Shown here piece by piece: positions 5,438 through 33,956 of a DNA stretch of 64,000 bases. Made by a program: the position numbers and the translations under genes. The stretch is from Mercurialis annua (taxonomy: Eukaryota > Streptophyta > Magnoliopsida > Malpighiales > Euphorbiaceae). The notes beneath the pieces are model-generated. The model did no database searches. It was not told the DNA's origin and was given only the letters and a program-made list of their open reading frames with translations. The stretch spans positions 34,498,628-34,562,627 of the forward strand of contig NC_065576.1 of the NCBI RefSeq assembly GCF_937616625.2, in the 5' to 3' direction. Numbering within the stretch: position 1 is the stretch's first letter; each line of letters starts with the position of its first letter.

Positions 5438-5566
5438 GGGCTCGATTGAGATCCCCCTTTAATGAAGGGCTCGATCAAGCCCTAGTCAATTTTCAAGGCA
5501 TGAAGCCTTCGGGGATGGGGCTCGATCGATCCCCTCTGCGTTAAATGAAGGGCTCGATCGAGCCCT
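5438..5566 (+). repeat. Palindrome tetrad in 5' LTR of A
   Basis: Four imperfect copies of GGGCTCGATCGAGCCC occur at about 5438-5455, 5466-5481, 5517-5534 and 5550-5565. Copies 1-2 and 3-4 are separated by short spacers containing TTAATGAA or TTAAATGAA. The middle spacer holds AAGCCTTCGGGGATG. The module lies about 120 bp upstream of the LTR TATA box. Confidence 0.85.
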
Positions 5567-5683
5567 TCTATTCTATCACTTGGAAATTACATTTTTGGAG
5601 CTCTAAACAAGATGAGGACCACTTTCGGATTTAGCCCAACACACCTATTGTACTAGGAGTTTTATTTCCTCTTTTGTAAGCCA

Positions 5684-5690
5684 TATATAA
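5684..5690 (+). promoter_or_regulatory. Probable TATA box of the A LTR
   Basis: CCATATATAAGGC sits about 470 bp into the LTR, the place expected for the U3 promoter. Element B has CTATATAAGACAC at the matching position. Confidence 0.6.
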
Positions 5691-8193
5691 GGCATTTTAT
5701 CTATACTTTAGGGTATGCAACATTCTCTATACATAACACTTTTTATCTTTTTGATTATTTCCTTTGTTTTAGTAATTCTAGGGCTTTGAGCCATCTTCTC
5801 CAAGTAGCAATTACTTGTAATACCCCTTATTTTTTTGTTATGTTTTCGACATGGTTTCAGATTAGGTTGAGCATTGTGACACCTTGATTGAGTCGTTTTT
5901 TTGTATCTTGTATGTGTCATATGTATCGTGTGGGTAGTAGATATTGATTCGATTCATTTTCGGGTATATATTGAAGTTGTTTTCCCATGTTTTCGAAAAC
6001 TGCCATGTGTTAATAAAGCGTTGATATCTCACAATTGAACAGTCGGATCGGGTTCATCTTTGGATATGTTGTTCCTAAGAGGATTTTTTAAAATCTGGTC
6101 GGTTGGATTGCTATTTGGAGGTTTCTAACTCTAAAAATACATGTTAAACCGTGGGCTTTAATTGCAGCCCAAGTAAAGCCCGCAGGAGTCTATAAATAGA
6201 CCCCTTAAATTGCAAACCCTAGCCCCCATTCAACTCCAAACCCTAAAAACGAATTGCTTCACTCAAAGAACTTGATTTCTTCTTTCTAAAAAGTCCGAAT
6301 GTGATTCATTCCGCTTAGAGTATGATTTTACATCCTACTCGCAAGATCTACGCGATTTCTATGTTGCGTTCTTCGTTGGAAGCTTGTGGATTAAATTGAA
6401 TTCGGTCCAGCCCCTTGAACCTTGGGTTATTACATCATTTACATCATTGTTCATCATCCATAGGTATTTTTTTCGTATCCTTTTGATTCATGGATTCATT
6501 GTTGTGTGATTTTGCCTTTAATGCATATATAGGATTTTAATAAAGTGAATTGTTGCTATTATTATGCTATGCTTATGCTACTGCGTTATATGGATAAAAT
6601 AATGGTTTGTATATATATAAATTGATGTTACATGTTTTGGAAAGCATTTGGCATGATTCATCAATGTTAGGATTTTTCTAGAAATTGTTGTATTCTAATC
6701 GATTTGGTGGTTTGAATCTATGAAATTGAGATTCTATGCTAAGGTTACTAATATGTATGATATTTTTGATGGATTTTATGTTTATGAACTGATCTTGTTA
6801 GTTGTATCAACACTTTGGCATGCTCTCGATTGTTTTAGCTGAAATAGCGTAAAATGGTGAATTTTGGGCTGTTTGAGAGTTGTAATCGCATAAATATTTT
6901 GAGATGATGCACCTACTGTTCTAAGATGATATATATGATTTTTATATGATTTAGTATCAGTGGTTATATGATTTGGGTTGTCGAATGCATGATTTTGCTT
7001 AGTTAGCATGTTTAGGCAATTTCTAACGAAATTGCGTTATCGATTGTTTAAGGGATGTTGGCATGAGTTTAGATCTGAGTTGGTTTGCTATTTTGAAATT
7101 ATGTATGATATAATAATGATCTAAATGAGTTTGGGAGTTTGAATCATAAATGTTTTGGTACGTGTTGGCTTAGTTTGCAAACTAGGTAGTTTTACGCTAA
7201 AATGCTTTGATTTCGGATTCGATACTTTGTAATGACCTAAGATCTGAATTACTTTCATATTATTTATTATGGTATGTATATGAACTGATCTAAGGTGTTT
7301 TAGTTTGACGATTCATGTTTGGTCTCGTTTTCGTCTAAGTGTCATGAATGCTTAATTGGCTTGATTTTGTGAAAAATATGTTAATTGATTCCAAATATTT
7401 TGCTATGGCATGTGTTATATAAAATGTGATTATTAAGCAAGGTAAGGCTGTTGTGTATTGGTTTTTGGCTTATTTGGTTGTGTTTGTCCTTTGGAGACTT
7501 TTATCGAACACTTTATAATTATGATGTTATACTTGGGTTTTAATGTTAATTGAGTTCCCTTGTTTTCTAAATTGATACTTTGGTATATTTAAATGATTCC
7601 GGACTTCAAAAGAATTGTTTTACTTTGGTTGGATGTTTGGTTTGGGTTAGACTTGGGTCGCCCAATTTGTGAGTATAGGCTTGGCAGTTGTGATAACTCG
7701 GCTAGCTGACCACTTTGGTTTAAACTTGGTTTTATAATTTTAACTAAGTTATTGAAATGATTTCCGGATTATGTTTTCAAAGTGGGAACTCAATTTGACT
7801 TGGCTATCGTATGACTTTGGTTATATTGAATATCTATGATTACTCTACTTTGGTTTATGCTTTGGCTATGGATTAAGTAAGTGTGTTTGCTTTGTGTTTG
7901 ATGAATGTCTTGACTCGTTGATCTTTGTGTTAGTCATATGTGTTGTCTAGTGCTCTCTAGAGTTAGGACATGTTTTAATTCTGATTTATATTGTCTAGAC
8001 TCGTCGAATGTTCGTGCTTCGGAGACGAATCAGGATTAGTTGCTTGCCAGGTTATCACGTGGATTAGCAAGCAGTGAGTTTGTACTTACTATTTACCGCT
8101 TTATTAAGTAAATTGTTATGTTAGTATCTATATAATGTATACGTACAATTGCGAACTGTTTTTATCATTATGGCTTTTAGTTGGAACATGCTA

Positions 8194-8212
8194 CCTAATG
8201 GGCATCATTAGG
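8194..8212 (+). repeat. Short inverted repeat shared by two solo LTRs
   Basis: CCTAATGGGCATCATTAGG has 7-bp arms (CCTAATG/CATTAGG). A near copy occurs at 52801-52819 in the other solo LTR at a similar distance from the LTR end (about 770-845 bp). Confidence 0.7.
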
Positions 8213-8254
8213 ACCGCGTGCGCACCGGTATTGATCTAGATAAGGTATGTGATA

Positions 8255-8385
8255 TGTGGTGGTAATCGGTGTGAGCATAGCTCTCGAGACCAGTAGAGTA
8301 ACTCGGTGTAGCTCAGCTCTCGGGACTCTGATTATGAATTAAGAGTGGTCGGTGGTAACTCGGTGTAGCTCAGCTCTCGGGACCA
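8255..8385 (+). repeat. Short direct repeats in solo LTR
   Basis: Three spaced copies of a motif like CGGTGTAGCTCAGCTCTCGG (the first degenerate) occur here. Confidence 0.7.
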
Positions 8386-9061
8386 GGCCTATTAGATTAT
8401 GGATATATTTATTATTGTGGATTAGGGTTCCAACTATTATACGTAATGTTGTTATTAAATGTTTTAAACGGTTTTAAAGGTTTTCCACTTGATAAATGTA
8501 AATAGTGGTATGAACTCATCTCAGTATATCTGACCCTGTTGTTTTCCCAATTTTTTCAGGGTTATGATTTGAGCGAGTCAGCTGCTCTCCGATTCTTTAT
8601 TTCGTCGGAGGTTTTACTTTATATTTTAATAAAGTTAGTAAACTGATTTTATTCTTAGACCGCAGTAGTAATTAGAAGTCTTATGTCGAATACTTGTTAT
8701 AAATCTATTCAATTAATTAATTATTATTTTTAGCATCCTTTTATTAACTTGGGTTAATATGTACTTCTGCCATGTATAAGACTCAGAGTTGGCTGAGCAC
8801 TTTATAATAAATGTTGTATACTATGAACTACTAGAATTAGGCTGAAGTCTCGGTTGCCCCTAAGCATTGGTTTTCTTGCAGGTTTATATATTTGTTGATT
8901 ATCCGCAAAACTAGCTACGGGTTTTGGTACAACCATACCCATACCCTAGCGCCGGTCGCGATTCATGAAATTGGGTCGTGACATTACTCCATTGTTGAAT
9001 ATTGTTTGAAGCTTTTAAATTGAAGATTATGTTCCTTTATTATTAATTGAGGATTTATCTT

Positions 9062-10113: not shown

Positions 10114-11498
10114 ATGCATAATACACGACGTTCCAATCTTCCGCTCGAACCTTTTGAAGAAAACCTTGGTAGATTCGAAAGATGTGTGAGAAGAAGAGCC
10201 CGTATCCCCGTAGTTATGGAAGGTGATGGCAATAATTATGAGGAAGTGGAGAGGTTCAATCCTCTAGCGGAAGGAGGGGAACAACAATATCCACCACCTC
10301 CTCCTCCGCTTGAGAATGTGAACCGACAAAGGATTCAAGAGCGCCCAAGGGATGATCGCCCCCAAGAGCACACACAAGTGTATAATCAACCAAGACAAAC
10401 TTTGGGTGAATTCTTCTTGCTAGATGAGGATAATGCCACGTTTGGGTGTTTTGCGATGCCGGTTCAAGCATCGACTTTTGAGATCAAGCTAAGTACCATA
10501 CAACTTTTGGAGAACCGGTATGCATTTTATGGATTGAGTCATGAGGATCCCAATGCACATATTGCCAAGTTCTTGGGTTTACTCAACACTTTCAAGATTT
10601 ATGGGACAGCCGCGGATCAAATCAAGCTAAGGATGTTCCCCTTCTAATTGAGGGACAAGGCAAGTTTATGGCTTCAATCTCCCCCAATGAGTCAATCCAC
10701 AACTGGAGAGATTTGGCTTAAGTGTTTCTCAACAAGTACTTCCCTCATGGCAAGACCGCAAGGCTAACTAAGGAGATAATTGATTTTGTCCAATTTGAGG
10801 GGGAGTCACTATATGAGGCATGGGAGCGGTTTAAGGATCTATAAAGGAACGTTCCACATTATCAACTCAAGAGAGAGCATGTCATCCAAATATTCTATGA
10901 TGGGACAACCGAGACTACTAGAGCTTCTATTTATGCGGCGTCGGGTGGTTCCTTAATGTAAAAGACATATGAGGAAGGTATTAAATAGGTGGAAACATTG
11001 GCTATAGTAAGTAGTACATGGTCCTCCACAGATAGAAGCAGACCATCTAGTCAAAAGTCGGCAATGATTCTTGACTAAGTAAAGAAGATGGAGGCCATGA
11101 AAACACATAATGCTTCACTTCAATCCCAAGTGGATGCCATGAGGAAATAAGTTGCTCCAAGAAACACACCGGTAGCTTATGGGCAAGTGGGATGCGATTT
11201 TTGTGGGGATTACAATCATGCAGGTGGAGAATGTCTAGTTGCGGGAAAAGCTTTGAGTGAGAAAGTGAACTACATTAAGGGAAAAAGACAAGTCAATGAC
11301 CCCTATTCCAATACTTACAACCCCAGGTGGAGAAATCACCCTAATTTTGGGTGGAGAAACAATGAGGGGCAAGGAAATGTTCAAGCTTCTCAACAAGCGG
11401 GTCCAAGTTTTCAAGGTGGAAACAAACCTCCTCAACAACACCAAGGTCACTACCACAACAATCAACACCATGGGAACAATTTTGGTGGTAGGCCTTAA
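10114..11498 (+). pseudogene. Element A gag remnant
   Basis: The first ATG at 10114 begins MHNTRRSNLPLEPFEE, almost the same as element B (MHNTRRANLPLEPFQE). The frame is open for 177 codons to a stop at 10645-10647. Homology then continues in other frames. A zinc knuckle CDFCGDYNHAGGEC (C-x2-C-x4-H-x4-C) lies at about 11190-11235. It would encode the capsid and nucleocapsid part of the polyprotein. Stops, for example near 10960 and 11075, and frameshifts inactivate it. About 75-80% of residues match element B by eye. Confidence 0.85.
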
Positions 11499-12859
11499 CA
11501 TCCTCCCGGATTCCAACCACAAAGCAACGCGTATGAGTGGAGTAAGATGGACAAGTTGTTAGAGAAGCTTGAGAGAATGGAACTTGAAAATAGGCAACTT
11601 CACAAAGAACCAAGCCTCCACTAATCAAATTTTTGAGACTCAAATCTCACAAGTTGCTCTTGCACTCCAAGGTAGACCTCAATGGGGCTTGCCTTCTACT
11701 ACAAAAACTAATCCAAGAGAACAACTCAATGCAGTTGAGCTTAGGAGTGGGAAGAGTCTTGAAAAGGCTAATGTCAAGAGGCCAAGAATCAAAGACGATG
11801 AGCCTCATGTGGTGATTGATATTGCAAGTAGTAGCCGAGAGTTGCCTAAGGTTTGTGAGGAGGTGGCTATTGATATTGAAGAGCCATATTTGAGACCACC
11901 ACAATCTCCACCATTTGTGCCTAAGGTGCCATTCCCAAGCCGGGTAAGAAAGGCGTCGGACAATCAAAAGTTCCATAAGTTTCTTGAGATATTCGAGAAA
12001 CTTCAAATCAACCTAAGTCTAGCGGATGCCTTGAAGGAGATGCCCCAATATGCTATGTTTTTGAAGGACATCATCACCAACAAGATAAGTTGGGACAATG
12101 GTGGAACAATTTCCGTTCCGGAAGTTTGTAGCTCAATTATCTTGAGCGATTTACCGGCTAAGTTGAAAGATCCAGTGAGTTTTTCTATACCTTGCACAAT
12201 CGAAAACATGAACTCCATCAATAGTTTATGTGATTTGGGGGCTAGTATACATCTTATGCCTTTTCAACTCTTTTCAGGACGCTTTTTGGGGATCAAACCG
12301 TGAAGAACACCTCGATGGTACTCCAACTAGCGGATCACTCATTGAAGAGGCCTTATGGGATTGTTAAGGATGTGCTAGGAAAGGTAGACAAATTCATCTT
12401 TCTAGTGGATTTCGATATTTTTGATTATGCGGTAGACAAGGAGTGCCAATGATCTTAGGGCGACCGTTTATGAACACCAGAAGAGCTTTGATTGATGTGC
12501 ATGGTGGGAAATTGACCTTGAAGATTGATGAAGGTTGAGTTTTATATGAAGAAAGTCATGAGAGGTACCATCAAGAAGGAAGATTGCATGAGGATTGATT
12601 TGGTGGATGAACTTGTGAGGGATCAAATTGAAGTGAACATGGAAGCATTGAATCAAGGAACAGGGCAAATTTTTGCGAAAAATGAGTTTTCAGAAGAGGA
12701 GCTCGATCGAGCCCCTTTGCTTGATCGAGCCCCACTGCATCTGAGAAATGAAATTCACTTCGGCAATAGAGCTCGATCGAGCCCCACTGATTTAATGAAG
12801 GGCTCGACCGAGCCCTCTGATTTTAAGGGAAAATCAGACTTTTTGGGGTCGCTCAAGTC
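11499..12859 (+). pseudogene. Element A protease and protease-RT linker remnant
   Basis: The frame 11569-12303 runs from the gag-protease linker into the aspartic protease; [12 protein letters not shown] near 12227-12262 is the active-site loop in its Athila form (DLGA). After a frameshift at about 12300 the flap region and the block LGRPFMNT follow in another frame (about 12455-12478). The linker after it (12525-12926) contains the palindrome module. The protease would mature the polyprotein. The break at about 12300 and further indels make this copy inactive. Confidence 0.8.
12698..12815 (+). repeat. Palindrome tetrad in protease-RT linker of A
   Basis: Four copies of a (G/A)GCTCGATCGAGCCC-type palindrome lie here; the second has lost part of its left arm and the fourth reads GGGCTCGACCGAGCCC. 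The last pair is joined by ACTGATTTAATGAA. The module is translated without a stop. Confidence 0.85.
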
Positions 12860-15811
12860 ATGTTTCAATCCGATGATTCAAATTATGATTATACCGAAGA
12901 AAATGACCCTCAACCAATGGAATTGAACAAGAGCAAGGTTCTTACACCACCATCCTTCGAGGTGCCTCCAAGTTTCGAGATGAAACCTTTACCACCTCAT
13001 CTCCGGTATGGTTTTGTGGGTGAAAACAAGACTCTCCCTATCATCATCTCCAACATGCTATCACAAGCTCAAGAAGAAAGGGTTGTGCTAGTGGTAAAGA
13101 TCATGTACTAGCCATGGGATGGAAAATTTCCGACATCCGAGGGATAAGCCCTCAAGTTGTTATGCACAAGGTTCATCTCGAAGATGAGTCAAAGAAGTCA
13201 GCTCTAAGGCAAAGGAGACTGAATCCAAATATGAAAGAAGTGGTGCACAAGGAGATTGTCAAGCTCCTAGATGCCGACATTATCTATCCTATATCGGATA
13301 GCGGATGGGTTAGCCCTATCCAATTTGTACCCAACAAAGGTGGAATGACCGTTATTAAAAATTAGAAAGGGGAGCAAATCTTAATCCGTACGGTGACATG
13401 ATGGCAAGTGTGTACTAATTACCGCAAGCTAAATGCGGAAGCTTGAAAGGGTCATTTCCCTTTGCCATTCAATGATCAAATAGAGAGAGTGATGAGTCAC
13501 AAGTATTATTGTTTTCTTGACGGATATTCCGGATATAATCAAATACTCATTTTCCTGGACGATCAAGAAAAGACGACATTCACTTGCCCCTACAGAACTT
13601 TTGCATGAATCTATCTTTGCCGACACGATAGAGGACATCATAAAAGTATTTATGGATGACTTTTCGGTGTTTGGGGATTCCTTTGAAATGTATTTGAAGA
13701 ACTTGGACCAAGCGCTAGCAAGATGTGAGGAAACTAACCTCGTGCTTAATTGGGAGAAATGCCACTTCTTGGTAGAAGTAAGAGTTGTCCTTGGCCATAA
13801 AATTTCTAAGGCGGGCATCAAAGTTGACAGAGCAAAGAAGAAGGTGATAGAGAAGCTACCTCCTCGTACTATCGTGAAAGGAGTTCGTGCCTTCTTGGGG
13901 CACGCCGGGTTCTATCGCCGCTTCATAAAAGACTTTTCTTCTATTGCTTGCCCTTTATCTAATTTGCTTATGAAAGATGTGTCTTTTGAGTTTACTAACA
14001 ATTGTCTTCTTGCTTTTGATAGGTTGAAGCATGAGTTGGTCTCCGCCCCCGCCATCTGCTCACCGGATTGGACCTTACCATTTGAGTTGATGTGCGATGC
14101 TAGTGATCAAGCACTCATGTGTGCTCTTGGGCAAAGAAAAGAGCAGCGGGTTCACGTTATCTACTATGCAAGTAGGAAAATGGCGGGGGCCCAACTCAAT
14201 TACACAACAACGGAGAAGGAGATGCTAGCGGTAGTCTTCGTTTTGGACAAATTTCGGCAATACTTGCTTGACTCAAAGGTAATCATATTTACCGATCACG
14301 TCACTTTGAGGCACCTTTTTGCCAAGCAAGATGTTAAGCCACGCCTCATCCGGTGGATTCTCCTCATGCAAGAGTGTGATATGGAGATTAGGGATAAGAA
14401 AGGCATAAAGAATTCGGTAACGGACCACTTGTTAAGGTTAGAGCATTCAGAACCGATTCCCTTAGGGGTTGAAATAACTTAGCGGTTCCCAAACGAGACG
14501 CTTATGGTCATATCTAATTTGAAGACGCCTTGTTATGCCAAAATCGCCAATTATCTTTCATCGGAAGTCATGCCTCCGGACTTGACGTCTCATCAAAGGA
14601 AGAATTTTTTATCTGATGTGAGGAGGTATTCATGGGATGAACCCGTCTTGTTTAAGATTTGTGGTGATGGGATGCTAATAAGGTGTGTGGCTTTGGGAGA
14701 AATGATGCCAATTTTGAATTTGTGTCGCGATTCCGACTATGCCGGGCATTATGGAGCAGCAAGAACCGCCGCTAGAGTTCTAAAGAGCGGGTTCTTTAGG
14801 TCGACGCTATTCCGAGATGCTAAGGAATTCGTTGATCATTGTGACCGTTGTCAACGAGTTAGGAACATCTCAAAGCGGGATGAGATGCCCTTGACCACTA
14901 TTCAAGAAGTGGAGATATTCGATGTGTGGGGAATCGACTTCATGGGACCCTTCCCAGTTTCATTTAAGAACCAATACATTTTGATATGTGTTGATTATGT
15001 CTCAAAATGGGTGAAAGCGGAGCTTTTTCCCACTAATGATGCTAAAGTGGTAATGTGTTTTCTCAAAAGGCTTGTGAACCGATTTGGGACTCCAAGAGTG
15101 ATTATTAGTGACGGTGATTCGCATTTTTGCAATCGACAATTCGAAGCTCTAATGAGGAACTACAATGTGCATCACCGAGTCGCTACCCCTTAGATTCCAC
15201 AAAGAAGTGGTCAAGTGGAAGTGTCAAATAGAGTGTTGAAGCGGATCTTGGAGAAGACGGTGAATCGGTCCCGAACTTATTGGTCCTTGAAATTGGACGA
15301 TGCATTATTGGCGTATCGGACGGCTTATAAAACGCTGCTTGGTATGTTTCCATTCCGCGTTCTTTATGGGAAGGCATGTCACCTCCCATTAGAGCTTGAG
15401 CATAGAGCGTATTGGGCTATAAAGAAGTTGAACTTCGATTTTAAAGCGGCGGGGGAAAAGCGGTTGCTTTAATTGAAAGAATTGGATGAATTCCGGTTAT
15501 TGGCGTACGAAAACGCCAAGCTTTACAAGAAGAAAACAATGAGATGGCACGGTGTTCACATTGCCCCCAAGGTTCTAGAAGTCTGGTCTTTTTTACTTCT
15601 TTACAACTCAAGATTGAAGTTATTTCTGGGCAAGTTGAAGTCCCGATGGAGTGGCCCGTTCAAAATCCGGAATATTGTGAGTCACGGTGCGGTGGAATTG
15701 GAGAATGCTAAAGGCGAGACTTTCAAAGTCAATGGGCATCGATGCCAACCCTATCTCGGGCCATTGACTAACCGAGTGCAATACGAGGTCTCTTTCACTA
15801 CTCCTACTTGA
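12860..15811 (+). pseudogene. Element A pol remnant: RT, RNase H, integrase
   Basis: The RT N-terminus (GWKISDIRGISPQ, 13114 on) is open to 13363. After about 13605 the frame changes, because roughly 55 bp coding the RT block around MPFGLC is missing relative to B (22583-22637). The catalytic FMDDFSVFG survives near 13650. RNase H ([31 protein letters not shown]) spans about 14090-14330. Integrase follows with a zinc-binding HYGAARTAA...CDRCQ and the core D, D residues in GIDFMGP and ISDGDSHF. Stops at 14480-14482, 15191-15193 and 15470-15472 interrupt the last frame. Confidence 0.88.
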
Positions 15812-16037
15812 GTCCACCGTGTGATAGTCAAGCTTTCGACTTAAAACAAGCGCACTCGAAAGACAATCTCGAGAGGTTTGATTTTTTTTAGCTTTGATTT
15901 CATGTTTTAAGTTTTTGATCTTATATGTTTGTGTGTTTAAGTTTTATGTTTATGTTTAAGTTAATGCCGGGTGTTTTCGTCTTTGGCGCGTAGGAATTTC
16001 CGCGAAAAAAATTGAAGTTCTTGGAGTCCTCTGAGGA

Positions 16038-17765: not shown

Positions 17766-17881
17766 GGAAAAAAAAGCTGAAGACGAAATTTGTTTGAAGA
17801 AAGAGCTTTAAGTGGCCCACTTCCCCTTTTAGCCCAACAACTCTTGTACTAGGATGTTATTATTTCCCTTTTTATCCGGAC

Positions 17882-22000: not shown

Positions 22001-24845
22001 TGAGACCTTGCCGATAATCATCTCGAACAAGCTTTCCAAGGAGCAAGAAAGGAGGGTTGTGCAAGTGGTGAAACAACATGTGTTAGCCATGGGGTGGCAA
22101 ATCTCCGACATCCGAGGCATAAGTCCTCAAGTGGCGATGCACAAGATTCACCTTGAGGATGAAGCTAAGAAGTGTACTCAAAGGCAAAGAAGATTGAACC
22201 CTAATATGAAGGAGGTTGTGCACAAGGAAATAGTAAAGCTTCTAGATGCCGGGATTATTTATCCAATCTCCGATAGTGGTTGGGTTAGTCCGGTTCAATG
22301 TGTACCTAAGAAGGGAGGAATGACGGTAGTGGAGAACGAGAAAGGGGAACAAATCTCTACAAGAACGGTTACCGGGTAGATAGTTTGTATTGACTATCGA
22401 AGGTTGAACGCGGAGACTAGAAAGGACCATTACCCGCTACCATTCATTGATCAAATGCTTGAAAGGGTGGCGGGTCACAAGTACTATTGCTTTCTCGATG
22501 GATATTCCGGCTACAACCAAATTTTGATCTTTCCGGATGACCAAGAGAAAACAACATTCACTTGCCCCTACAGTACTTTTGCTTATAGACGAATGCCATT
22601 TGGATTATGTAACGCTCCCGCAACCTTTCAACGTTGCATGACCTCAATCTTCAATGATATGGTGGAGGACATAATGGAGGTATTCATGGACGATTTTTCC
22701 GTTTTCGGTGATTCATTTGATGGTTTCTTGGCTAATCTTGAGTGAGTATTGGCACGGTGTGAGGAGACCAACTTGGTGCTCAATTGGGAGAAATGCCATT
22801 TTATGGTAGAAGAGGGTATTGTGCTTGGGCATAGGATCTCGGAAGCGGGTATCGAGGTTGATAGAGCGAAGACGGAGGTTATTGAGAAGCTAGTTGCTCT
22901 GGTTACGGTTAAGGGAGTCCGGGCATTCTTGGGCCATGCGGGGTTCTATCGGCGTTTTATCAAGGATTTTTCATCTATTGCAAGGCCCCTAACGAGTTTG
23001 TTAGTAAAGGATGCTCCCTTTGATTTTACCAAGGAGTGTCATGAGGCCTTCGAGAAATTGAAAGAGGCTCTTGTGACCGCACCTATTATCTCATCTCCGG
23101 ATTGGAGTTTGCCCTTTGAACTTATGTGTGATGCAAGCGACCAAGCTTTGGGGTGCGTATTGGGTCAAAGAAAGGACAAGAAGGTGCATGTGATATACTA
23201 TGCTAGCCGGACCATGGCGGGAGCTCAACTCAATTATACCACTACCGAGAAGGAGATGTTGGCAGTAGTCTTTGCTCTAGATAAGTTTCGGCAATACTTG
23301 CTCGGCTCCAAGTGCATTATTTACACCGACCATGCCGCCTTGAAGTACCTATTCACAAAGCAAGATGCCAAACCAAGACTCATCCGATGGATCCTTCTCA
23401 TGCAAGAGTTTGATATAGAAATCCGGGATAAAAAGGGCACGAAAAATGTGGTGGCGGACCACCTATCGAGATTTGAAAATTCGGAGCCTATTCCTATTGG
23501 CATGGAGATTAATGAGTGTTTTCCGGACGAGACACTTATGGTGATTCGGGAGGCAGAAACACCATGGTATGCCGGTATAGCTAACTTTCTTTCCTCTAAT
23601 GTCATGCCTCCGGATTTGACACACCATCAAAGGAAGAAATTTCTCTCCGATGCCAAGAGATTTCTTTGGGATGAGCCGTATTTGTTTAAGGAATGTGGAG
23701 ACGGGATGTTGAGGCGATGTGTCGCTTTGAAGGAGATGATGCCCATTTTGGAGGCTTGTCACACATCCAATTATGCCGGTCACTACGGAGTGGCAAGAAC
23801 CGCCGCTAAGGTTTTGGAGAGCGGATTCTTTTGGCTCACATTATTCCGCGATGCCAAAGACTTTGTGAGCCATTGTGATAGGTGTCAACGGGTTGGCAAT
23901 ATTTCAAAGAGGGACGAGATGCCATTGACTTCCGTGCAAGAGGTAGAGATATTTGATTTATGGGGGATTGACTTCATGGGGCCGTTTCCAATGTCGCATG
24001 GGAACCTATATATCTTAGTCGGCGTGTGTTATGTTTCGAAGTGGGTAGAGGCGGAGGCCTTGCCTACAAATGACGCCAGAGTGGTTTTGAAGTTCCTTAA
24101 GCGTTTGATGAATAGGTTCGGCACCCCGAGGATTATCATTAGTGACAGTGGGTCACATTTTTGCAACCGGCAATTCGATGCCTTGATGAAGAAATACAAT
24201 GTGTACCAGCGGGTTGCTACCCCCTATCACCCACAAACGAGCGGGCAAGTTGAGGTCTCCAACCGAGAGTTGAAACGGATACTCGAGAAGACGGTGAATG
24301 GCACTCGTAAGGATTAGAGCTTGAAGCTTGATGATGCACTATGGGCATACCGCACGGCATTCAAAACGCCTTTAGGGATGACCCCCTATCGCATTGTGTA
24401 TGGTAAGGCGTGCCATTTGCCTTTGGAATTGGAGCAACGGGCTTATTGGGCGATTAAAAAGTTGAACTTTGACCTTAAGGCGGCGGGGGAAAAACGTTTG
24501 TTGCAATTAAATGAATTGGAGGAATTCCGGTTCTCGGCATACGAAAATGCAAAACTCTATAAGGAGAAGACCAAGCGTTGGCATGACGCGCACATTTCCC
24601 CCAAAACTTTTGAGGTAGGAACTTATGTCTTGGTGTATAATTCACGGTTGCGACTATTTCCGGGCAAGCTTAAGTCCCGATGGAGTGGGCCCTTCAAAAT
24701 TCGGAGTGTGGCAAGTCACGGAGCCATTGAGTTAGAAAACCAAGGAGGTGAAACGTTTAAGGTCAACGGACACCGTTGCAAGCCTTACTTGGGGCCTTTG
24801 ACGGATCAAATTGGGGAGCAATGTTACCTCGACCCACCCACTTGA
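19065..24845 (+). pseudogene. Element B gag-pol polyprotein, single frame with five nonsense codons
   Basis: The ATG at 19065 (MHNTRRANLPLEPFQE) matches the element A start. All segments to the TGA at 24843-24845 are in one frame. Stops lie at 19968-19970 (TAG), 20310-20312 (TAA), 22377-22379 (TAG), 22743-22745 (TGA) and 24315-24317 (TAG). Domains, counting from the ATG: gag about 1-340; zinc knuckle CEFCGDFNHSGGEC from 360; protease DLGAS at 695; RT catalytic FMDDFSVFG with the first D at 1209; RNase H starting CDASDQAL near 1355; integrase zinc region near 1565-1610; integrase core D1636, D1694 and E1730 (DD35E spacing). I see no chromodomain, as expected for Athila. Relative to element A, three of the five stops are TGG-to-TAG changes. 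Function would be capsid formation, reverse transcription and integration; this copy cannot make the full protein. Confidence 0.92.
21616..21790 (+). repeat. Palindrome cluster in protease-RT linker of B, inside the coding frame
   Basis: Copies of CATGTCTTGGTCGAGAAGC, CATGTCTCGACCAAGACAG, CTTCTCGATCAAGACAAG, CATGTCTTGATCGAGAAGC and CATGTCTTGACCAAGACATG follow each other. They are translated in frame, giving repeated CLGREAR/CLDREAH peptides. The position matches the module at 12698-12815 in element A. Confidence 0.88.
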
Positions 24846-25522
24846 GTTCGCCATGTGATAGTCGAGCTTTCGACTTTAAACAAGCGCACTCGGGAGGCAA
24901 TCCCGAGAGGTTCGATTTCCTTTCTTGTTTATTTTTCATCTTGTTACTATTTTAATTTTAGTGTTTTTATTTGAGTATTTATGTCTTTTTGTGCGAGATA
25001 ACTCCGGGGTATTTGCATTGTTTGTGTTGTGTAGGATTTCATTTTTTGAATTTTTGAGAAATGTCAGTTTTGTGCATGTCTTGATCGAGAAGCACAACTT
25101 AAGTGAACTTCTCGATCGAGACATGAAGGGCAATCTTCGACGAAGCAATTTACACATTGCTTCTCGATCGAGAAGCACCACTTAAAGAGCTTCTCGGTCG
25201 AGAAGCACACTGCTGAGCCAAAACTGAACTTTTTCTCACAAATTTGAAAATTCAAATGGGTCAAAGGCACATGGATTGATGACGTGGCAAGGATCCAAGC
25301 CATCCAAAAGAAACACATTTCACATGGATCACCAAATTAGGGGAATCTCAACCATCCAATAATTCAAAAAAGAAACTTGCCATTTAAGAACACCCAACCC
25401 TTCATCTTCTTCCCCACTTTTACTCGAATTAGAAAATTAACTCCATAGACTCTCCTCCCTCTCAAGAAATCCGGCCACCACCCTACCAACTCAAAAATCC
25501 CACCACTTTTCTTCACCAAATC
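24846..25522 (+). other. Non-coding gap between pol and post-pol ORF of B
   Basis: No ORF is supported here. The stretch carries the palindrome tetrad at 25075-25208 and otherwise resembles the matching gap 15812-16517 of element A. It may hold signals for expression of the downstream ORF, but none is recognisable. Confidence 0.7.
25075..25208 (+). repeat. Palindrome tetrad between pol and post-pol ORF of B
   Basis: The order is CATGTCTTGATCGAGAAGC, spacer ACAACTTAAGTGA, ACTTCTCGATCGAGACATG, a gap containing CTTCGACGAAG, then GCTTCTCGATCGAGAAGC, spacer ACCACTTAAAGA, and GCTTCTCGGTCGAGAAGC. It is preceded by GTCAGTTTTGTG and followed by CACTGCTG. Confidence 0.9.
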
Positions 25523-26914
25523 ATGAAGAAAGCCACCAAACCATGCGGGTCTCGTCAAGCCCCAAGTTCCGCTCAAGAACCACGACCACAACGTGCCTCA
25601 AGCCGGAAAACACAAGCCGCCGGACCAAATTCCACCACGGCCTTGACTCGCCAATTTAATGCTCCATTTGAAATCCGTAGAGTCGAAGAAAGGGAAAAAT
25701 ATGAAGCCTTGAAGGAACGCGGTTTGGCAATCCCATTCGGAATTTGTTGGAATTCCATGAGGGATTTGGGTTTAGAAGAAGAGGTGAAGCGTCACTTGGC
25801 GGTGTTGGGTTTGCAATTCATGGCGGAACTCTCTCATGATGTCTATGAAGAATTGGTGTATGAATTTTTCACCACCTTGCGACCACATTCTCAATGTGCG
25901 GGAGATATGCAATATCGGTTGCGGAATGTGGGTCGGATTCTCACTAAGGGTGAGTTGACTAGGTATTTTCACTTACGGAACACGGGGTTGAAGGCGACAC
26001 CATCACGTTTTGATTGGGATGCGGCATGGCGTGAGTTGTCCGATAAAGAGGTGTTCCGGGCAAGAGTGTCGAAGGTAAACGACATCAAAGATACGGCTTT
26101 GGTGGTAGTAATTAAATGGTTAGGCCACACTTTTGGAGGGCGAACCGAGTACAACAAGGTGGGCGAAAGTGATTTGTTCATGTTAAACGCGATTATGCAC
26201 CCCGAGGTGGAAGAATATCAAGTGGATTCGGCGGAAATGCTTTATCGGAAGTTGCAAGCGGTCCCGGACAATACAACACCTCTTGGGTTTGCATCACTCG
26301 TTTACTTTTTGGCAACCAGCCAAGGGTTAACCGATGTCTCCGACTACACCCACACGGCTCCGAGAATGATTAACACGGAGCATTTGGAGCGGGCTAAGTA
26401 TGTTCACAACGGGGTAGTCCTTTCTTACTACAAGCGTCCGGCTTGGATTAAGGAGCATGGAGCGGAGGCGGCTCGTAGAGCGGAATTTGGGGAGGAAGCC
26501 GAGTTTGTGCCTGAGGAAATTCCACCGCCGGCTCCGAGAAGGCAAAAGGAGAAACCACGAAGGAAAGGGAAAGGAGTCGAGCAATCTAGCGCTCAAGGCG
26601 AAGAAGAGGCACCGCAAGGAGGTTTTGCGGAAGCAAGTTATGGGGGGGCCGAGGCCCAATGGTCCGCTTTTGACCATCGGTTTAATGAAATGGCGGATTA
26701 CAACCGCCAAGCTTGGGCGGAGCAAAAAGAAATTTTGGAGCGAATGGAGACGGCCCAAAGGCGGGGAATGGCAAGAATCGAATATAAGCAAGGGCGGTTG
26801 AAAGATAAAATCGAACGGCAAAGGGCGGATTTCCGAAATTATGTGAATGGTCAAGGCATCATTGAGTGGATTGACACTCCCCCTCAATCCCCCTCTACCC
26901 CGGAGTTCGACTAG
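25523..26914 (+). CDS. Element B post-pol ORF, ATHILA ORF-1 / putative plant transposon protein, intact
   Basis: This is an uninterrupted 463-codon ORF (ATG at 25523, TAG at 26912-26914) on the same strand as gag-pol. The N-terminus is basic and serine-rich. A conserved domain of about 230 residues (APFEIRRVEE, RGLAIPFGI, VYEFFTT, VNDIKDTALVV, GRTEYNKV) matches the plant transposon-protein family found in Athila elements. The C-terminus is low-complexity, rich in E, R and K, with a likely coiled coil near residues 390-440. No signal peptide or membrane segment is visible, so an envelope role is not supported. Its biochemical function is unknown. It is notable that this frame is intact while gag-pol has five stops. 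Confidence 0.85.
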   Translation: MKKATKPCGSRQAPSSAQEPRPQRASSRKTQAAGPNSTTALTRQFNAPFEIRRVEEREKYEALKERGLAIPFGICWNSMRDLGLEEEVKRHLAVLGLQFMAELSHDVYEELVYEFFTTLRPHSQCAGDMQYRLRNVGRILTKGELTRYFHLRNTGLKATPSRFDWDAAWRELSDKEVFRARVSKVNDIKDTALVVVIKWLGHTFGGRTEYNKVGESDLFMLNAIMHPEVEEYQVDSAEMLYRKLQAVPDNTTPLGFASLVYFLATSQGLTDVSDYTHTAPRMINTEHLERAKYVHNGVVLSYYKRPAWIKEHGAEAARRAEFGEEAEFVPEEIPPPAPRRQKEKPRRKGKGVEQSSAQGEEEAPQGGFAEASYGGAEAQWSAFDHRFNEMADYNRQAWAEQKEILERMETAQRRGMARIEYKQGRLKDKIERQRADFRNYVNGQGIIEWIDTPPQSPSTPEFD

Positions 26915-28721
26915 CGAGATTTGCACTTTCTAACTCTCTCATACAATTTCATGCTTTATTTTTATTTCTATGCTTTAGGGACTAAGCTAGAAATAGTGTG
27001 AGGAGGGTTGTGAAATTGTATCTCGTGTTTTATCTTGTTTATTGATTTATGTCTTTTACTTTATGTCGTGTGTTTAGTTTTGATTAGTTGTTTTGTGGCA
27101 CCTCTAGCACTAAATCATTGGCTTAGTATGTTGAGAGCATGATTAGTAACTTTGGTGCACGTATGAAAGTTGTCAACGATTGTTATGTCCCGATCAATGA
27201 ATTTATTCAAATGCGTTTTCTAGTTTAATCAATCGAATGTCGATGCTTGCCTAATGAAATGCAATTTGTATGACATGTTTTGATAAGATTAGGGTGAATT
27301 TGAGTAATGGCTTGTGTGATTTTTGAATTTTCAGAGGTTACTTAATGCGGATTCATGATTTGTACCAAAAAGTTGAAAGAAATTTAAGTTGTGAAAATTC
27401 AGTTTTTGGCATGTCTTGATCGAGAAGCACTGTTAAGTGGTGCTTCTCGACCAAGACATGAAGGCCACTTTTCGACGAAGTGAATTCTTCATAGCTTCTC
27501 GATCGAGAAGCACTTTTAAGTGATGCTTCTCGATCGAGAAGCACACTGCTGGGGCAAAAAGAAACCTTTCAAAAACTGAATTATTTGTCACACTTTGGCA
27601 CTTTTTCATAAGAATTAAGTTTTTGGGCATGACACCACTTTTATTTGAGCATGTTTTGAGCCTAATTGTTTTTTGTGAGTGTCCTTTGCATGCCTAATTC
27701 CTAGAACTTGCTCGGTGTCCGTTCCAGACTATATGGTTGAGTGTCGATAACTAGATGAGTATGTCATTTGGATTACCCCATTTTCTTAAAACCACTTAAA
27801 AGCCTACCCTTTACCACTAGATTACACCTTTTGAGCCTTAGCCATTTTTTATTGATTTCACCATACTTTCACACATTTTATCCCTTCAACATTTTACCTA
27901 TAAAAACACCCCAATTTGACTTGATTAACTTAAAAATTGTAAAATTTGATGCTAGCTTGATGAAAAAGAAAGAAAATGTGAACAAGTGCTTGAAAGAAAG
28001 AAAAAAAAGAGAAGCAAATTTAGATGCCTTGAAAAGAAAAGAGAATAAGAAAAGCATGAAAAAAAAAACAAAGAAAATAAATAAAGGCAATCAAAAATGA
28101 AAAGTTCACAAGTACGGAAAAATTCCGAGCTAGATCAAAAGTTAGTAGTGCTTTGTAAGATTAGTTTTCAAGTCAATTTGTAGCCATATTTATCCATTTT
28201 TACCTACCCCTAACCCTTAGCCAAGTTACAACCCTTAACAAGTCCATATGATAGTTGTTGATTACCGAGCTAAGTAGTGGAGTCCGGGACTACGAGCAAG
28301 CCTATGGTGAATTTGCATATGTATTGAACTTTACTTTTGCACCCGAAACACTTGAGTGTTAGAGTGATACCTTGTGAGGAATGACGCCCTTACTTGATGC
28401 TTATGAACATAGTGCCATGATTTGCTAATTTTGTTTAACCAATGTGTTGCATGTCCCGTAGATGATGGTAAACTTGAGATTGTTTGACATAATGCCATAT
28501 CATTAGTAGTCTCAATGTCATCGGGATATGTCATTATAATTGCATTCATCATTTGTTTGCATCGCTTTTGGTTGATGATATTAGACGGTTGCATTTGTAA
28601 CTTCATTGATTGGGAATTCGTTGTTGACATTTGTTCATAGTTGCCAAGGTTGTTAATTGTGTGTTGATGGTGAGATTCATTTCTTGCTTGAGGACAAGCA
28701 AGGGCTTAGTGTGAGGAGGTT
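26915..28721 (+). other. 3' non-coding region of element B with two polypurine-tract-like motifs
   Basis: No coding region is supported. The true polypurine tract AGTGTGAGGAGGTT ends directly at the 3' LTR (28708-28721). A near-identical AGTGTGAGGAGGGTT lies at 26995-27009, just after the post-pol ORF. The stretch also contains a palindrome tetrad (27410-27544), a purine-rich tract near 27960-28095, and a conserved block CCTAGAACTTGCTCGGTGTC (27701-27720) shared with element A (31403). Confidence 0.75.
27410..27544 (+). repeat. Palindrome tetrad in 3' non-coding region of B
   Basis: The order is CATGTCTTGATCGAGAAGC, spacer ACTGTTAAGTGG, TGCTTCTCGACCAAGACATG, a gap with TTTTCGACGAAG, then GCTTCTCGATCGAGAAGC, spacer ACTTTTAAGTGAT, and GCTTCTCGATCGAGAAGC. 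It is preceded by AAAATTCAGTTTTTGG. Element A has no module at this place (about 31270-31330). Confidence 0.9.
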
Positions 28722-30261
28722 TGATAGGAGTAGAATACTCCTAGTATTTAGATAGTTTTTGCATCACTTTATTACGTTTTGACATGTGTTTTTAGGTGTT
28801 TCGATACCTTATTATGTGTGTTGGCGTTTCAGGTGATTTGGAGTGTTCGCGGAACTATTTGGGCTAAAAAGAGTGAAGAATTAAAGAAATATCAAAGTCG
28901 GAAGCTAAAGAAAAGATTTAAAGAGAAATCAAGTTTTTAAAGCATGTCTTGGAAGAGAAGTTCATGAGCAAAAGAGAAGCCGAGGAGCAAAAGAGACATG
29001 TGTAATTTAACACATGTCTCGACCAAGACATGATCTTCTCAACCAAGACATGAAGGACCATTTTGCACGAAGGTTCATCAAAGGAGCTTCTCGATCGAGA
29101 AGCTCAACTTAAATGAGCTTCTCGACCAAGACATGGGAAAAAAAAGCTGAAGACGAAATTTGTTTGAAGAAAGAGCTTTAAGTGGCCCACTTCCCCTTTT
29201 AGCCCAACAACTCTTGTACTAGGATGTTATTATTTCCCTTTTTATCCAGACTATATAAGACACTTTATATTTTTAGGTCAACATCCATTCACTTTTGTAA
29301 CAACAACTTTATATCAATCAATTTCATTCCTTTTGCTCTCTACTTTTAGAATAGGATCTTCATAGTTCTTGGTGTTCTTCATTTAATTTCCAGATTTTGC
29401 TATATTGGGAAACTTATTAAATACAAGTATTGATCTTTTAATTCAAGCTTCATTATCTTGTTCATGTGTTTGAAGTTCATTTATTACTCAAAGGTATTTA
29501 TTCTTTACTCTATGCCTAATCTTCACTATTGCTTAATTAGTTATGCCATGATGATGATTAGTAGCTAAACCCCTTGTCTGGGGGTTGTTATGATTGCCAT
29601 GATTGATTAGATAGGTGATTAGGGTGAGGGTTTATGGGTGATGTTGGTTGTTGTGCTTCTTGAGCTTAATGCTTAAAATAGGTTGGCCTCTTATTCTTTG
29701 CTATGTGGTTTAATTAGGAGGACGAGAGTTAACTAATTAGATTATACCTAGGGGAGTACATGCTTTAGACATAGATGCATTAGCATGATCTAAGGCTATC
29801 TTGGTTGTGGAGTTTGCTTGATTAGTTGGCTTTATTAACTCTCTTGAAATCTATGAGCACGAGAGTGGATTAGGTTTCGGGATTGTTAATCAAGTTTCGA
29901 CTCTTTCACTTCCGGCTCGAGAGAGCGGAATTGGTTCCGTAGAATAGCTTGACCCGACCTAAGTTCCCATCACCTTAACCCAAACTACCTAGATATGACT
30001 TTGGCATGACTAGCAACCTCTAAACGCTTTACCCTATTTGTTTAAATCGCGTGTTAATTAGTTGATTGTTGATTAATTGCTTTAGTTAAGTAGCGTGTTT
30101 AATTAATAGTTGTTTGCAAGTTCTTTTATTTGAAACCAAAACCAATCTTTCTATTACTTTCCGAATTGAATTTCACAATCAATTTCGTTCACTTTAAACC
30201 TCTAATCCTTGTGGGTTCGACCTCGACTTGTCGAGTACTACGAGTTGGCTTTTTGCTAACA
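28722..30261 (+). repeat. 3' LTR of element B
   Basis: It is 1540 bp with ends identical to the 5' LTR. I count about 24 substitutions, roughly 15 of them transitions, and no indel. The palindrome tetrad is at 29013-29135. Confidence 0.95.
29013..29135 (+). repeat. Palindrome tetrad in 3' LTR of B
   Basis: Same order as 17643-17765. The second palindrome has two changes (ATCTTCTCAACCAAGACATG). Confidence 0.88.
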
Positions 30262-30266
30262 AGGGC

Positions 30267-30866
30267 TTGGATTAGAGTCGGGTAAAGATGGAAACCCCGC
30301 AGATGATAAACATGGAACACCTTGCGACTTCATCATTTATCAAGAGTGGTAAAATTGTGCCTTACTATAAAAGGGCCGCATATGTGAGTCGCCATGGGGC
30401 TAGACTGGAGTCCCCTACAGTGGAGGAGCAAGAACCCGAGGTGGAGAAAGAGCCAAGGGAAAGGCCACAAAAAGAGAGTGTGAGGAGGAAGGACAAGCAT
30501 GTGGCGGAATCAAGCGCCCAAGGTGAAGAGCAAGGATTTGAGCAAGCTCCGATTTGGGAGACATTCCCCAAAGCTTAATTCCAGGGTGCCCAACGGGACC
30601 AACCACAAGCTCCAGGAAATTTTGAGGAGGCACAACGCCTATTCATGGAGGAGCAACGAAAAATGTGGAAGCAAATCTGTTATGACCAACAAAGGCTTCG
30701 GGCGAGGCAGAGGAGGCACGAGGAAAAGTTGAAGGACTACTACAATGCCCTCGGCGGGCCGAGCTATCCTTCACCTACGCCATCTCCGGAACCCCCGACA
30801 TTTGTATTTTCTAATTCTATCTCATACAATTTCATATTTTTATTTTATTTCATGCTTTGGGACTAA
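30267..30866 (+). pseudogene. Element A post-pol ORF, 3' part
   Basis: This continues the gene cut at 17351. Segments MINMEHL, YYKRAAYVSRHG and SSAQGEEQ align with the C-terminal half of the intact element B ORF. It is open from 30288 to 30578 and then in another frame (30645-30866, ARQRRHEEKLKDYY). An in-frame stop near 30275 and the frame change inactivate it. Confidence 0.8.
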
Positions 30867-32466
30867 GCTAGAAATAGTGTGAGGAGGGTTGCGAAATTGT
30901 ATCTCGCTCTATCTTTTATTTTTATCGCTTTATGTTGGTGTGTTTGTTTTTATGTTTGTGTTGTTTTGAATCACCTCAAGCACTAAGTCTTTGGCTTTGG
31001 ATTGTTGTAAGCATGATTAGTTGCCTTGGTGTACTTTTTAAAGTTTGTCAACCGATGTTATTTCCCGATCAATGAAGTTATCAAATTAAATGTTGTGTGT
31101 GTGTGTGTTTGCTAGTTTAATTAATTAAATGTTGATTCTTGCCTAATGAAATGAAATTTGTATGAAATGCTTCAATGAGATTAAGGTGAATTCAATTAGT
31201 TGGTTGTTGTAATTTTTGCATTTGCATGGTTACTTAATGCAAATGCATGATATGTGCTTTAAATTGTAAAAATTATGTCAATTTAAATTCTTTTGCATGA
31301 TTGGCATGTGTTCACATGAGTTAAGTATTTAGTATGACACCACTTTTATTTGAGCATTTGTTGAGGCTAATTGTTATTGGTGAGTGTCATTTGCGTGCTA
31401 AATTCCTAGAACTTGCTCGGTGTCCGTTTGAGACTATATGGTTGAGTGTTAATAGCTAAATGATTATGGCATTAGAACTACTCCATTTTGAATTAGACCA
31501 CTTTAAAAGCGTACCCTTTACCCTTTGATTACACCATTTGAGCCTAAACATTTCCTCGATACACACAAATCACATACATTTAACCTTCAACAATTTACCT
31601 CTTTAAAACACCTAAATTTAACTTGAATAACTTAAGATAAGAAGAATTAACTTGAATAACTTAAGATGAGAAGAATGTGACCCTAGCTTGATGATTACAA
31701 AAAAATGTGAACAAGTGCTCTAGAAGAAAAATGTGCCTTAAGAAAAAGAAAATCAAAAGAAAGAAAGAATAAAGAAAGAAAAGAAGAAAAGAAAAGATAA
31801 AAAAAAATGATGAAGGAAATAAAAAGAAAATATGAATAAAGGAAATGAAAAATGAAAAGTTCACTAGTATGGAAAATTCCGAGCTAGATTAAAAGTGCTT
31901 TGTAGGTTAGTTGTTCAAGTCAAGTTTTAGCCAATTATCCCAATTTACCTACCCCTAACCCCTAGCCAAGTTACAATCCTTACACAAGTTCATATAATAG
32001 TTGTTGATTACCGAATTAAATAGTGGAGTTTGGGACTAAAATCAGGCTTATGGTGAATTTCGCATGTAGTGTGAGCTTTATTGTATACCAGAAACACTTG
32101 TGTGTTGGAGTGACATCTTGTGAGATTTAATTGATTTTCTTGATACCTATGAACAATATGCCATGATTTTCCATTTCTTTTCGACCAATGTGTGCATGTC
32201 CTGTAGATGATGGTAACTTGAGATTGTTGACATAGTGTCATTTCGATAGAATTCTCAATGTCATTGGACTATGTTATTATAATTGCATTCATCATTTGTT
32301 TGCACCACTTTTGGTTGTTAATGTTAGTTAGTTGCATTTGGATCTTCATTGATTGGGATTTTGTTTATTGACATTTGTTCATAGTCGCCAAGGTTGTTAA
32401 TTGCGTGTTTAATAGTAAGATTCATTTCTTACTTGAGGACAAGCAAGGGTTTAGTGTGAGGAGGTT
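30867..32466 (+). other. 3' non-coding region of element A
   Basis: No ORF is supported. It matches 26915-28721 of element B in layout: an internal polypurine-like AGTGTGAGGAGGGTT at 30876-30890, a purine-rich tract at about 31725-31860, the shared block TAGAACTTGCTCGGTGTC, and the true polypurine tract AGTGTGAGGAGGTT at 32453-32466. A (GT)n stretch lies at 31094-31109. The palindrome tetrad found here in B is missing. Confidence 0.75.
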
Positions 32467-33956
32467 TGATAGGAGTAAAATACTCCTATGCTTTCTAGGT
32501 GTTTTCCGTATGCTTTTACATGTTTTACCACGCTTTTCGGTTTCTTTGTATACCTTATTGTGTGTGTGTGTGTGTTGTAGGGAAAGCGGAGCAAAACAGA
32601 GTCTTTTTGGGCTAAAGAAGGAAGAATCAACGAATCGGAAATTGAGCGAAGTCTTGGAGCGTTTTGGCGAGAAATGACCCCTCTAAGCAAGAGGGCTCGA
32701 TCGCGCTCCCCCTTAAATGAAGGGCTTGATCGAGCCCTAGTCAGTTTTCAAGGCATGAAGCCTTCGACGATGGGGCTCGACCGAACCGCTATGTATTAAA
32801 TGAAGGGCTCGATCGAGCCCTTCTATTCTATCACTTGAAAATTGCATTTTTGGAGCTCTAAACAAGATGAGGCCCACTTCTGGATTTGGTCCAACACACC
32901 AATTGTACTATGAGTTTTATTTCCTCTTTTGTAAGCTATATATTAGGCATTTTATCTCTACTTTAGGGTATGCAACATTCTCTAGATATAACTCTTTTTA
33001 GCTTTTTGATTATTCCCTTTGTTTTAGTAATTTTAGGGCTTTGAGCCATATTCTTCAATTAGCAATTACTCCATTGTTGAATATTGTTTGAAGCTTTTTA
33101 ATTGAAGATTGTGTTCCTTTATTATTAATTGCAGATTTATCTTTATTATTGAATGTTCTCATTAGTTGTCTCTAAGAAGGTAATTAATATTCTCTCATTA
33201 ATGTTTTATTCTTATTGTGCGATTGTTGTTGACTTAGCCATGGTTGGCTAATCCCCCTTGTTTGGGAGTTGATATGAAGCCTAGATAAATGGATGATTGG
33301 ATTAGGGTTTAGTCTTGTTTTGATGTTCTAATTAATGCTCTTAATGCTTGCTTTAGATTAGCTACCTAAAGTATGATTCTAGATTAATTAAGGCTTTGAG
33401 AGAAGGTTAATTAATTGGATTAGGTTGATTAGATTCTTAATTGATAACAACATGAGAGTGGGTTACAGATTACGAAACCCTAGAGTTGAATATTAATTGT
33501 GAACTTACTTGTTAATCTTGTTTAGTGCCACGAGAGTGGGTTAAGCATGATTAGTAGGTTTGTGTTGCGGTTTTGTATCTCTTTGAGGCTCGAGAGAGCG
33601 AGAGATACGCTTTAGGAACGCTCAGTTCACATTTATAGCCATAGACCTGATTCCCAAGGTTGCATGACCTAGGTGGAATTTTGACCTCCATACCTCTTTA
33701 TTATTTGAATTTTCGTTAGTTATTAATCAATTTCATCTTTTATAATTGTTAATTTAGTTGTTGAATTGCAATTTTGGTTACTTAGTTCAATTGATAGTTG
33801 TTTAATTGATACTCCGCAAACATCTCTTTTTGTTGCTAAACGAATTGAAATTCAAGATCGACTTCGCTAAGTTTAAACCTCTCCTCTTCGTGGGATCGAT
33901 TCCGTACTTACATATTACTACAAGTGGTCATTAGGGGGTGAGCATTTTTAGCAACA
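32467..33956 (+). repeat. 3' LTR of element A
   Basis: It is 1490 bp, starts TGATAGGAGTAAAATACTCC, ends TTTTAGCAACA, and is followed by TSD CCGAT (33957-33961). It is clearly more diverged from its 5' partner than the two B LTRs are from each other. Confidence 0.93.
32693..32820 (+). repeat. Palindrome tetrad in 3' LTR of A
   Basis: Four GGGCTCGATCGAGCCC-type palindromes occur, two with substitutions. Pairs are joined by CTTAAATGAA and TATTAAATGAA, and the gap between pairs has AAGCCTTCGACGATG. Confidence 0.85.

Follow-up and report, generated by a model that had tools for sequence, protein, structure and literature searches.

A clustered near-palindromic module, possibly a regulatory cassette, recurs within two nested Ty3-type retrotransposons of Mercurialis annua

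Two nested retrotransposons and their shared module

The window that we analysed is a stretch of 64,000 nucleotides from Mercurialis annua (Euphorbiaceae; RefSeq assembly GCF_937616625.2, contig NC_065576.1, positions 34,498,628 to 34,562,627 of the forward strand), and it carries two related long terminal repeat (LTR) retrotransposons, element A and, nested within it, element B (Table 1). In both elements a short module of clustered near-palindromes recurs in the U3 part of the LTRs, in the linker between protease and reverse transcriptase (RT), and downstream of pol. The nested pair had been recognised in the original prediction and is borne out, with each element bounded by its own target-site duplication (TSD); the TSDs and ends of A and B were read by eye, and the LTRs of A have the ends TGATAGG..AACA. 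The 5' LTR of A is interrupted by a further insert at approximately 5812-8982. In B, a Pfam search finds a gag domain and, within a single open reading frame (ORF), RNaseH domains ahead of integrase domains, which is the Ty3 order. The name Athila is the label given to A and B in the original prediction, and we keep it as a provisional assignment. The closest protein relatives are gene models of M. annua itself, which account for 27 of the best 120 of 2579 matches, and the top six relatives, all among these 120, show 61-87% identity over 55-96% of the query.

Element A sits in a tandem array of 19/38 bp (CCGACCAACGAGGCTTCGG), seen at 33957-34060 and to the left of 5217. The open frames at 1601-5107, which adjoin A, resemble a Ty3-type pol remnant by eye.

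Anatomy of the module

The repeat unit is a 10-bp near-palindrome, CTYGRYCRAG, flanked by arms of approximately 5 bp. Scanning the window for this core with at most one mismatch gives 54 sites, 38 of which form nine modules and 16 of which are single sites elsewhere. Exact matches number 34, with 32 inside the modules, compared with an expected mean of 0.66 and a maximum of 3 in 100 order-1 Markov sequences. Near-palindromes in general, defined by 8 or more symmetric pairs out of 10 and a GC content of 35% or more, occur 43 times, against a mean of 16.4 in 10 order-1 Markov sequences, and 20 of the 43 lie inside modules. Sequence scans and a profile of the module agree with the original prediction on the number of modules and on the place of each one. 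The predicted layout of four palindromes holds for eight modules, but the B linker module has six units, and the claim that every palindrome centres on TCGATCGA did not survive, this string being exact in 15 of the 38 units. The TTAARTGA-like spacers are indeed common to A and B. Several modules of each element were likewise confirmed to have a CTTCGACGAAG-like string in their gap, but its offset differs between A and B. The typical spacing between cores is regular in both elements, at approximately 31-52-31 bp (Table 1). The CpG observed/expected ratios range from 0.60 to 1.12 in the nine modules versus 0.64 to 0.79 in the LTRs and internal parts.

Cores and spacers are common to A and B, but the arms differ. 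The arms of A are GGG/CCC, and those of B are built from two half-sites, CATGT and GCTT, and their complements. Because these half-sites join in all four combinations, many B units are not palindromic outside the core; the units can be called palindromic, as predicted, in their near-palindromic core, but not in the unlike arms that many B units carry. We therefore rejected strict homodimer palindromes as the general rule in B. When one LTR per element is omitted, the symmetry of an arm with its own partner amounts to 0.70 across 12 units of A and to 0.54 across 18 units of B, and arms match the other units of their own element about as well (A 0.63, B 0.55; permutation values for own partner versus other units, A 0.10, B 0.53). 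Between elements, the arms match at only 0.20 and 0.23. The conserved feature is thus a vocabulary of arms particular to each element, rather than the individual palindromes.

Table 1. Elements A and B, the nine modules and the post-pol ORF of B, with core positions, core-to-core spacing and folding z-score against shuffles (single-module folding covered seven of the nine modules)
Feature	Coordinates	Strand	Cores and remarks	Spacing (bp)	Fold z
Element A, Ty3-type LTR retrotransposon	5217-33956	+	LTR pair ~90% identical; TSD CCGAT		
A 5' LTR U3 module	5426-5577	+	5441, 5470, 5521, 5553; TATA 5684	29-51-32	
A protease-RT linker module	12687-12827	+, forward	12702, 12720, 12772, 12803; open frame 12522-12926	18-52-31	-4.8
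A post-pol module	16026-16177	+	16041, 16071, 16122, 16153; upstream of post-pol ORF (ATG 16518)	30-51-31	-6.7
Element B, related to A, nested within A	17352-30261	+	LTR pair 98.3% identical; TSD AGGGC		
B 5' LTR U3 module	17633-17775	+	17648, 17668, 17720, 17751; TATA 17882	20-52-31	-10.5
B protease-RT linker module	21604-21793	-, inverted	21621, 21651, 21704, 21724, 21756, 21776	30-53-20-32-20	-10.6
B post-pol module	25065-25217	+	25080, 25111, 25163, 25193; upstream of post-pol ORF (ATG 25523)	31-52-30	-9.9
B post-pol ORF, 463 amino acids	25523-26914	+	between two modules; without Pfam match		
B-only 3' module (27410)	27400-27553	+	27415, 27446, 27498, 27529; downstream of post-pol ORF	31-52-31	-8.2
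B 3' LTR U3 module	29003-29145	+	29018, 29038, 29090, 29121; TATA 29252	20-52-31	
A 3' LTR U3 module	32681-32832	+	32696, 32725, 32776, 32808; TATA 32937	29-51-32	-4.4

Position, orientation and within-element similarity

The modules had been described as lying at fixed places. This holds for the U3, linker and post-pol copies, which are present in both elements, but the module at 27410 exists only in B, and in the linker the B copy is inverted. In both elements the post-pol module comes after the end of alignable pol, at near-equal distances, and the linker modules lie between alignable flanks. As sites at domain borders, the linker copies do fall between protease and RT, but both are inside open reading frames, that of B being in frame within a 688-amino-acid ORF (20313-22379).

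The inversion of the B linker module relative to the other B modules is seen in a profile of the other eight modules, which gives it 43.4 bits on the minus strand; its plus-strand scores are 15.1 and 18.5 bits. The eight profile modules themselves score 58.8-94.3 bits forward and 10.8-37.7 bits in reverse, the latter values being sizeable because the units are near-palindromic. With the units masked, the B linker module scores 94 in reverse and 40.5 forward against the other B modules (shuffle mean 41.9, maximum 64, n = 1000), and the A linker module scores 41.0 forward (shuffle P 0.002) and 29.0 in reverse against the other A modules. The first four cores of the B linker module (30-53-20) mirror those of the B U3 module.

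The module at 27410 is nearest to the post-pol module of B (25054-25223; 80.8% across 172 bp), and this pair has the top module-to-module score, LTR pairs aside. The homologous site in A, near 31255-31301, is approximately 190 bp shorter and free of any module. When the scores are taken together, again with LTR pairs omitted, modules cluster by element more than by position: they range from 100 to 118 forward within A and from 110 to 186 forward within B (92-114 in reverse for the B linker), and comparisons of A with B at equal positions give 34-60 forward and, for the linker, 42 in reverse.

Some sequence adjoining the modules is related to them or encloses them. A degenerate unit-like stretch, CATGTCTTGGAAGAGAAG, lies at 17570-17640 upstream of the B U3 module and pairs with the module in the predicted fold. 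An outer inverted repeat, TCAGTTTTG..CAAAACTGA, surrounds the B post-pol module (25055-25240) and closes its predicted fold, and by eye a related outer repeat surrounds the copy at 27410.

Further copies

The peptide encoded by the B linker module occurs in two more M. annua gene models, P0003 and P0004, which were the sole matches when the linker region alone was searched (2 at E ≤ 0.001 among 40 candidates). The B linker module is not confined to this copy of the element, because two further models carry the peptide. In a strict test on the best 120 matches, at least two spaced pairs of core-coding words were found in 2 of the 27 M. annua models (P0003 and P0004 again) and in 0 of the 93 other proteins; one further M. 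annua model, P0023, has one such pair, outside the linker. The linker peptide is missing by eye from 8 of 10 aligned M. annua models that were hand-picked from the 27, and this absence is uncertain because the gene models may have spliced the peptide out.

A pol query returned no stretch from a viral contig collection, and from a genome contig collection it returned nine pattern-matching stretches, none of them confirmed. The two-core pattern matches four IMG/VR contigs (L001-L004), by pattern match alone. No paper joining Mercurialis with Athila was found in a literature search, and the titles and beginnings of abstracts that were screened, mainly outside subscription journals, gave no account of the module in Athila elements.

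Elsewhere in the window, copies of a different palindrome (like GGTCTGTTCTCTGAAGAACAGACC) are clustered at 61660-61940, inside a repeat of approximately 1.1 kb whose ends are inverted copies of each other (61368-61464 and 62413-62317, 99%).

The module as a proposed regulatory cassette

The last core of the U3 module lies at a near-equal distance from the TATA box in all LTRs, 131 bp (5') and 129 bp (3') in A and 131 bp in both LTRs of B. Beyond the modules, a self-comparison gives no match between the U3 regions of A and B, which align weakly and are much diverged. The spacing classes of 20, 31 and 52 bp are close to 2, 3 and 5 helical turns (p approximately 0.006 when three free spacings are simulated and the period is fitted), which we regard as modest evidence. 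The original prediction had left three options, a binding site for protein dimers, an array of RNA hairpins, or a self-spreading repeat. The half-sites, the helical spacing and the TATA distance are in favour of the first, and the inversion, the B-only copy and the similarity within each element are in favour of the third; an RNA array is possible but not favoured.

We give about an even chance to a reading that combines these two, in which the module is a regulatory cassette of clustered dimer-type sites that serves the LTR and internal promoters and is copied within its element in either orientation. The cassette would act as an upstream activator of the LTR promoter through binding of a dimer-type protein, and a further copy, placed after pol and ahead of the last ORF, would drive an internal promoter for that ORF. 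Copying to other places in the same element, in either orientation, would most simply result from template switches made in the course of reverse transcription, and the palindromes of the cassette might themselves aid these switches. Copies would then persist where they are harmless, in the variable protease-RT linker (in frame) and, in B, after the last ORF. Repeated copying would keep the units of one element alike, and the vocabulary would drift apart between elements.

Several observations weigh against the regulatory cassette. The evidence from helical spacing is modest because the modules, whose three spacing classes the test takes as independent, are related by descent, and because the 18-bp spacing in the A linker is off phase. 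There is no TATAWA between the post-pol module and the ORF in either A or B; one TATAWA is found at 27899, 370 bp beyond the final core of the module at 27410. The post-pol ORF could come from spliced RNA instead, because both elements have a candidate splice acceptor (..GTAG/GA, read by eye) shortly before the module, at 15993 in A and 25034 in B, 46-48 bp ahead of the first post-pol core. Copies of the module inside a coding linker would be odd for a control site, and we know of no factor that binds CTCGATCGAG. The top score between A and B belongs to the post-pol pair (60), so that homogenisation would be incomplete and some positional memory left. The module also shows no slower decay after insertion than the remaining LTR. 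In the LTR pair of A, 16 of 138 module sites differ versus 40 of 444 in the rest, and in B 4 of 131 versus 20 of 1411. Among CpG sites, 7 of 13 differ in the A module; outside it, the counts for part 1 and part 2 of the A LTR pair are 5 of 12 and 14 of 24. The B module has 1 of 6 differing CpG sites, against 4 of 28 outside it. Any constraint after insertion is thus invisible, and we rejected the idea that the module is protected once inserted, since its rate of decay equals or exceeds that of the remaining LTR.

The post-pol ORF of B has no Pfam match at E ≤ 0.001 and, of 7995 candidates scored, none is a homologue at E ≤ 1e-5; divergence could explain both results.

Alternative readings

The lack of visible protection would also be expected if the module were a palindromic cassette that spreads by itself through template switching or gene conversion, accumulates where it is tolerated and has no function for the element, a reading that we consider possible though rather improbable. 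The inverted B linker copy, the B-only copy at 27410, the similarity of modules within an element and the eight hand-picked homologues that lack the linker peptide by eye are all consistent with such spread. However, constraint in the active lineage is suggested by the near-equal TATA distance in four of four LTRs and by spacing that is regular in A as well as in B, and neutral decay alone would be expected to erode the dyad symmetry.

A role of the module in RNA, as long hairpins in genomic or spliced RNA that would act in packaging, in dimerisation through self-complementarity or in control of the last ORF from its 5' untranslated region, appears unlikely to us. The option of RNA hairpins has support to the extent that each of the seven folded modules greatly exceeds its shuffles in stability (z from -4.4 to -10.6; Table 1). 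When 409 windows across 5224-33956 were ranked by z-score, all of the lowest 15 overlapped a module, with the best A linker window ranking 29th. Family-specific self-complementary arms would fit self-recognition. Strong folding would tend to arise from any set of palindromes, however, and no specific pairing is favoured. In an alignment of eight modules, with the B linker omitted, the fraction of paired cells is 78.4% for self-palindromes, 82.4% for P1:P2 with P3:P4 and 79.7% for P1:P4 with P2:P3, and the covariation scores in the same order are 0.263, 0.287 and 0.257. Each scheme exceeds its own shuffles and slid versions on both measures, but because three incompatible schemes score alike, no specific RNA fold is supported. 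When units are permuted within an element, the fraction of arrangements at least as good as the nested pairing is 0.12 in B and 0.98 in A (Watson-Crick pairs only), and with random orientation of the units it is 0.35 in B and 0.94 in A; unit order and orientation therefore add nothing, and an ordered fold as the specific explanation is set back. The consensus fold contains changes on both sides in 14 of 33 pairs, which the arm vocabulary alone can explain, and the predicted folds vary from module to module. Rfam has no match within the modules; the two matches at E ≤ 1 within 5000-34100 are both outside them.

Matches to snoR71 (RF00097) are seen on the minus strand in the gag part, at 10761-10867 in A and 19710-19817 in B (40.1 and 37.2 bits, gathering threshold 40). 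Either retrotransposon sequence is part of this Rfam family or a sequence resembling a small nucleolar RNA is conserved in antisense to gag.

We consider it very improbable that the module is primarily a recognition site for host silencing, with palindromic RNA cut into small RNAs, because this would account for a consequence and would leave unexplained the retention and multiplication of the module by the element. In favour of it is an excess of small RNA on the palindrome clusters of maize Sireviruses (Bousios 2016 as told in PMC10760457). For Athila6, three models of the onset of small RNAs have been offered, one of which invokes hairpin-like structures (PMC3276544).

Returning to the regulatory cassette, we add a further proposal that is tentative and, in our judgement, doubtful. 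As the cassette moves in either orientation within its own retrotransposon and is repeatedly re-homogenised, each family may come to hold a private code of binding sites, common to all of its promoters at one time, which would co-evolve with a family-specific factor of the element or the host, and the cassette may also serve as in-frame filler of the linker. If the regulatory reading itself is right, the inversion, the empty site and the private arm code would be traces of a retrotransposon rewiring its own control sequences, and a direct test of the expression of the post-pol ORF becomes possible.

Comparison with known systems

VANDAL transposons carry motifs that are bound by their own VANC proteins. 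They resemble A and B in having short motifs that are spread across non-coding parts and differ by family, but they are DNA transposons, and a VANC-type protein was not identified in A or B. Closer in type is Athila6A of Arabidopsis, which we take to be related to A and B as a kind of element. The annotated Athila6A element includes a promoter for its ENV ORF, the ORF after pol; the accessible part of this account mentions no palindromic module, and the likeness to A and B is one of description, not of sequence (PMC4977677).

The nearest counterpart is found in the Sireviruses, Ty1/copia elements whose LTRs hold dyad-symmetric palindromic repeats; nine ENV-bearing elements have them upstream of ENV as well, and the authors propose that the repeats are regulatory and find the idea of an internal promoter supported (PMC2829016). 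Given these repeats, the claim of the original prediction that a module repeated in LTRs and at domain borders is without precedent among described elements does not stand. In both systems short dyad-symmetric repeats, at least 8 per element in Sireviruses, lie upstream of the U3 TATA box, and a shared core is combined with outer sequence that varies between elements (PMC2829016). In A and B the U3 repeats precede the TATA box in four of four LTRs, with many B units symmetric in the core only, and extra copies of four cores each precede the post-pol ORF (16041-16162 in A, 25080-25202 in B), comparable to the Sirevirus copies before ENV. Another trait of the Sirevirus motif clusters is that they border CpG islands (PMC2829016), against which the CpG ratios of A and B given above can be set. 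The two systems differ in the motif: the Sirevirus repeats carry a CGG-CCG signature in 12 of 13 elements, with ACAATCGATTGT in Tnd-1 (PMC2829016), whereas A and B have the core CTYGRYCRAG with CTCGATCGAG at its centre and lack that signature. They also differ in the host, which is Ty3-type for A and B by the RNaseH-before-integrase order in one ORF of B, and in placement, as 77 of 79 linker-domain copies in Sireviruses precede ENV (PMC2829016). The four-unit 31-52-31 cassette, the copies in the protease-RT linker, one of them inverted, and the copy after the last ORF are found only on the side of A and B. The module is therefore not a Sirevirus motif, since core and host element differ, but it is built like one and, by analogy, probably works like one. 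If so, the Ty1/copia and Ty3 retrotransposons of plants would have reached an equal promoter design, with palindromic clusters in the LTR and at an internal promoter.

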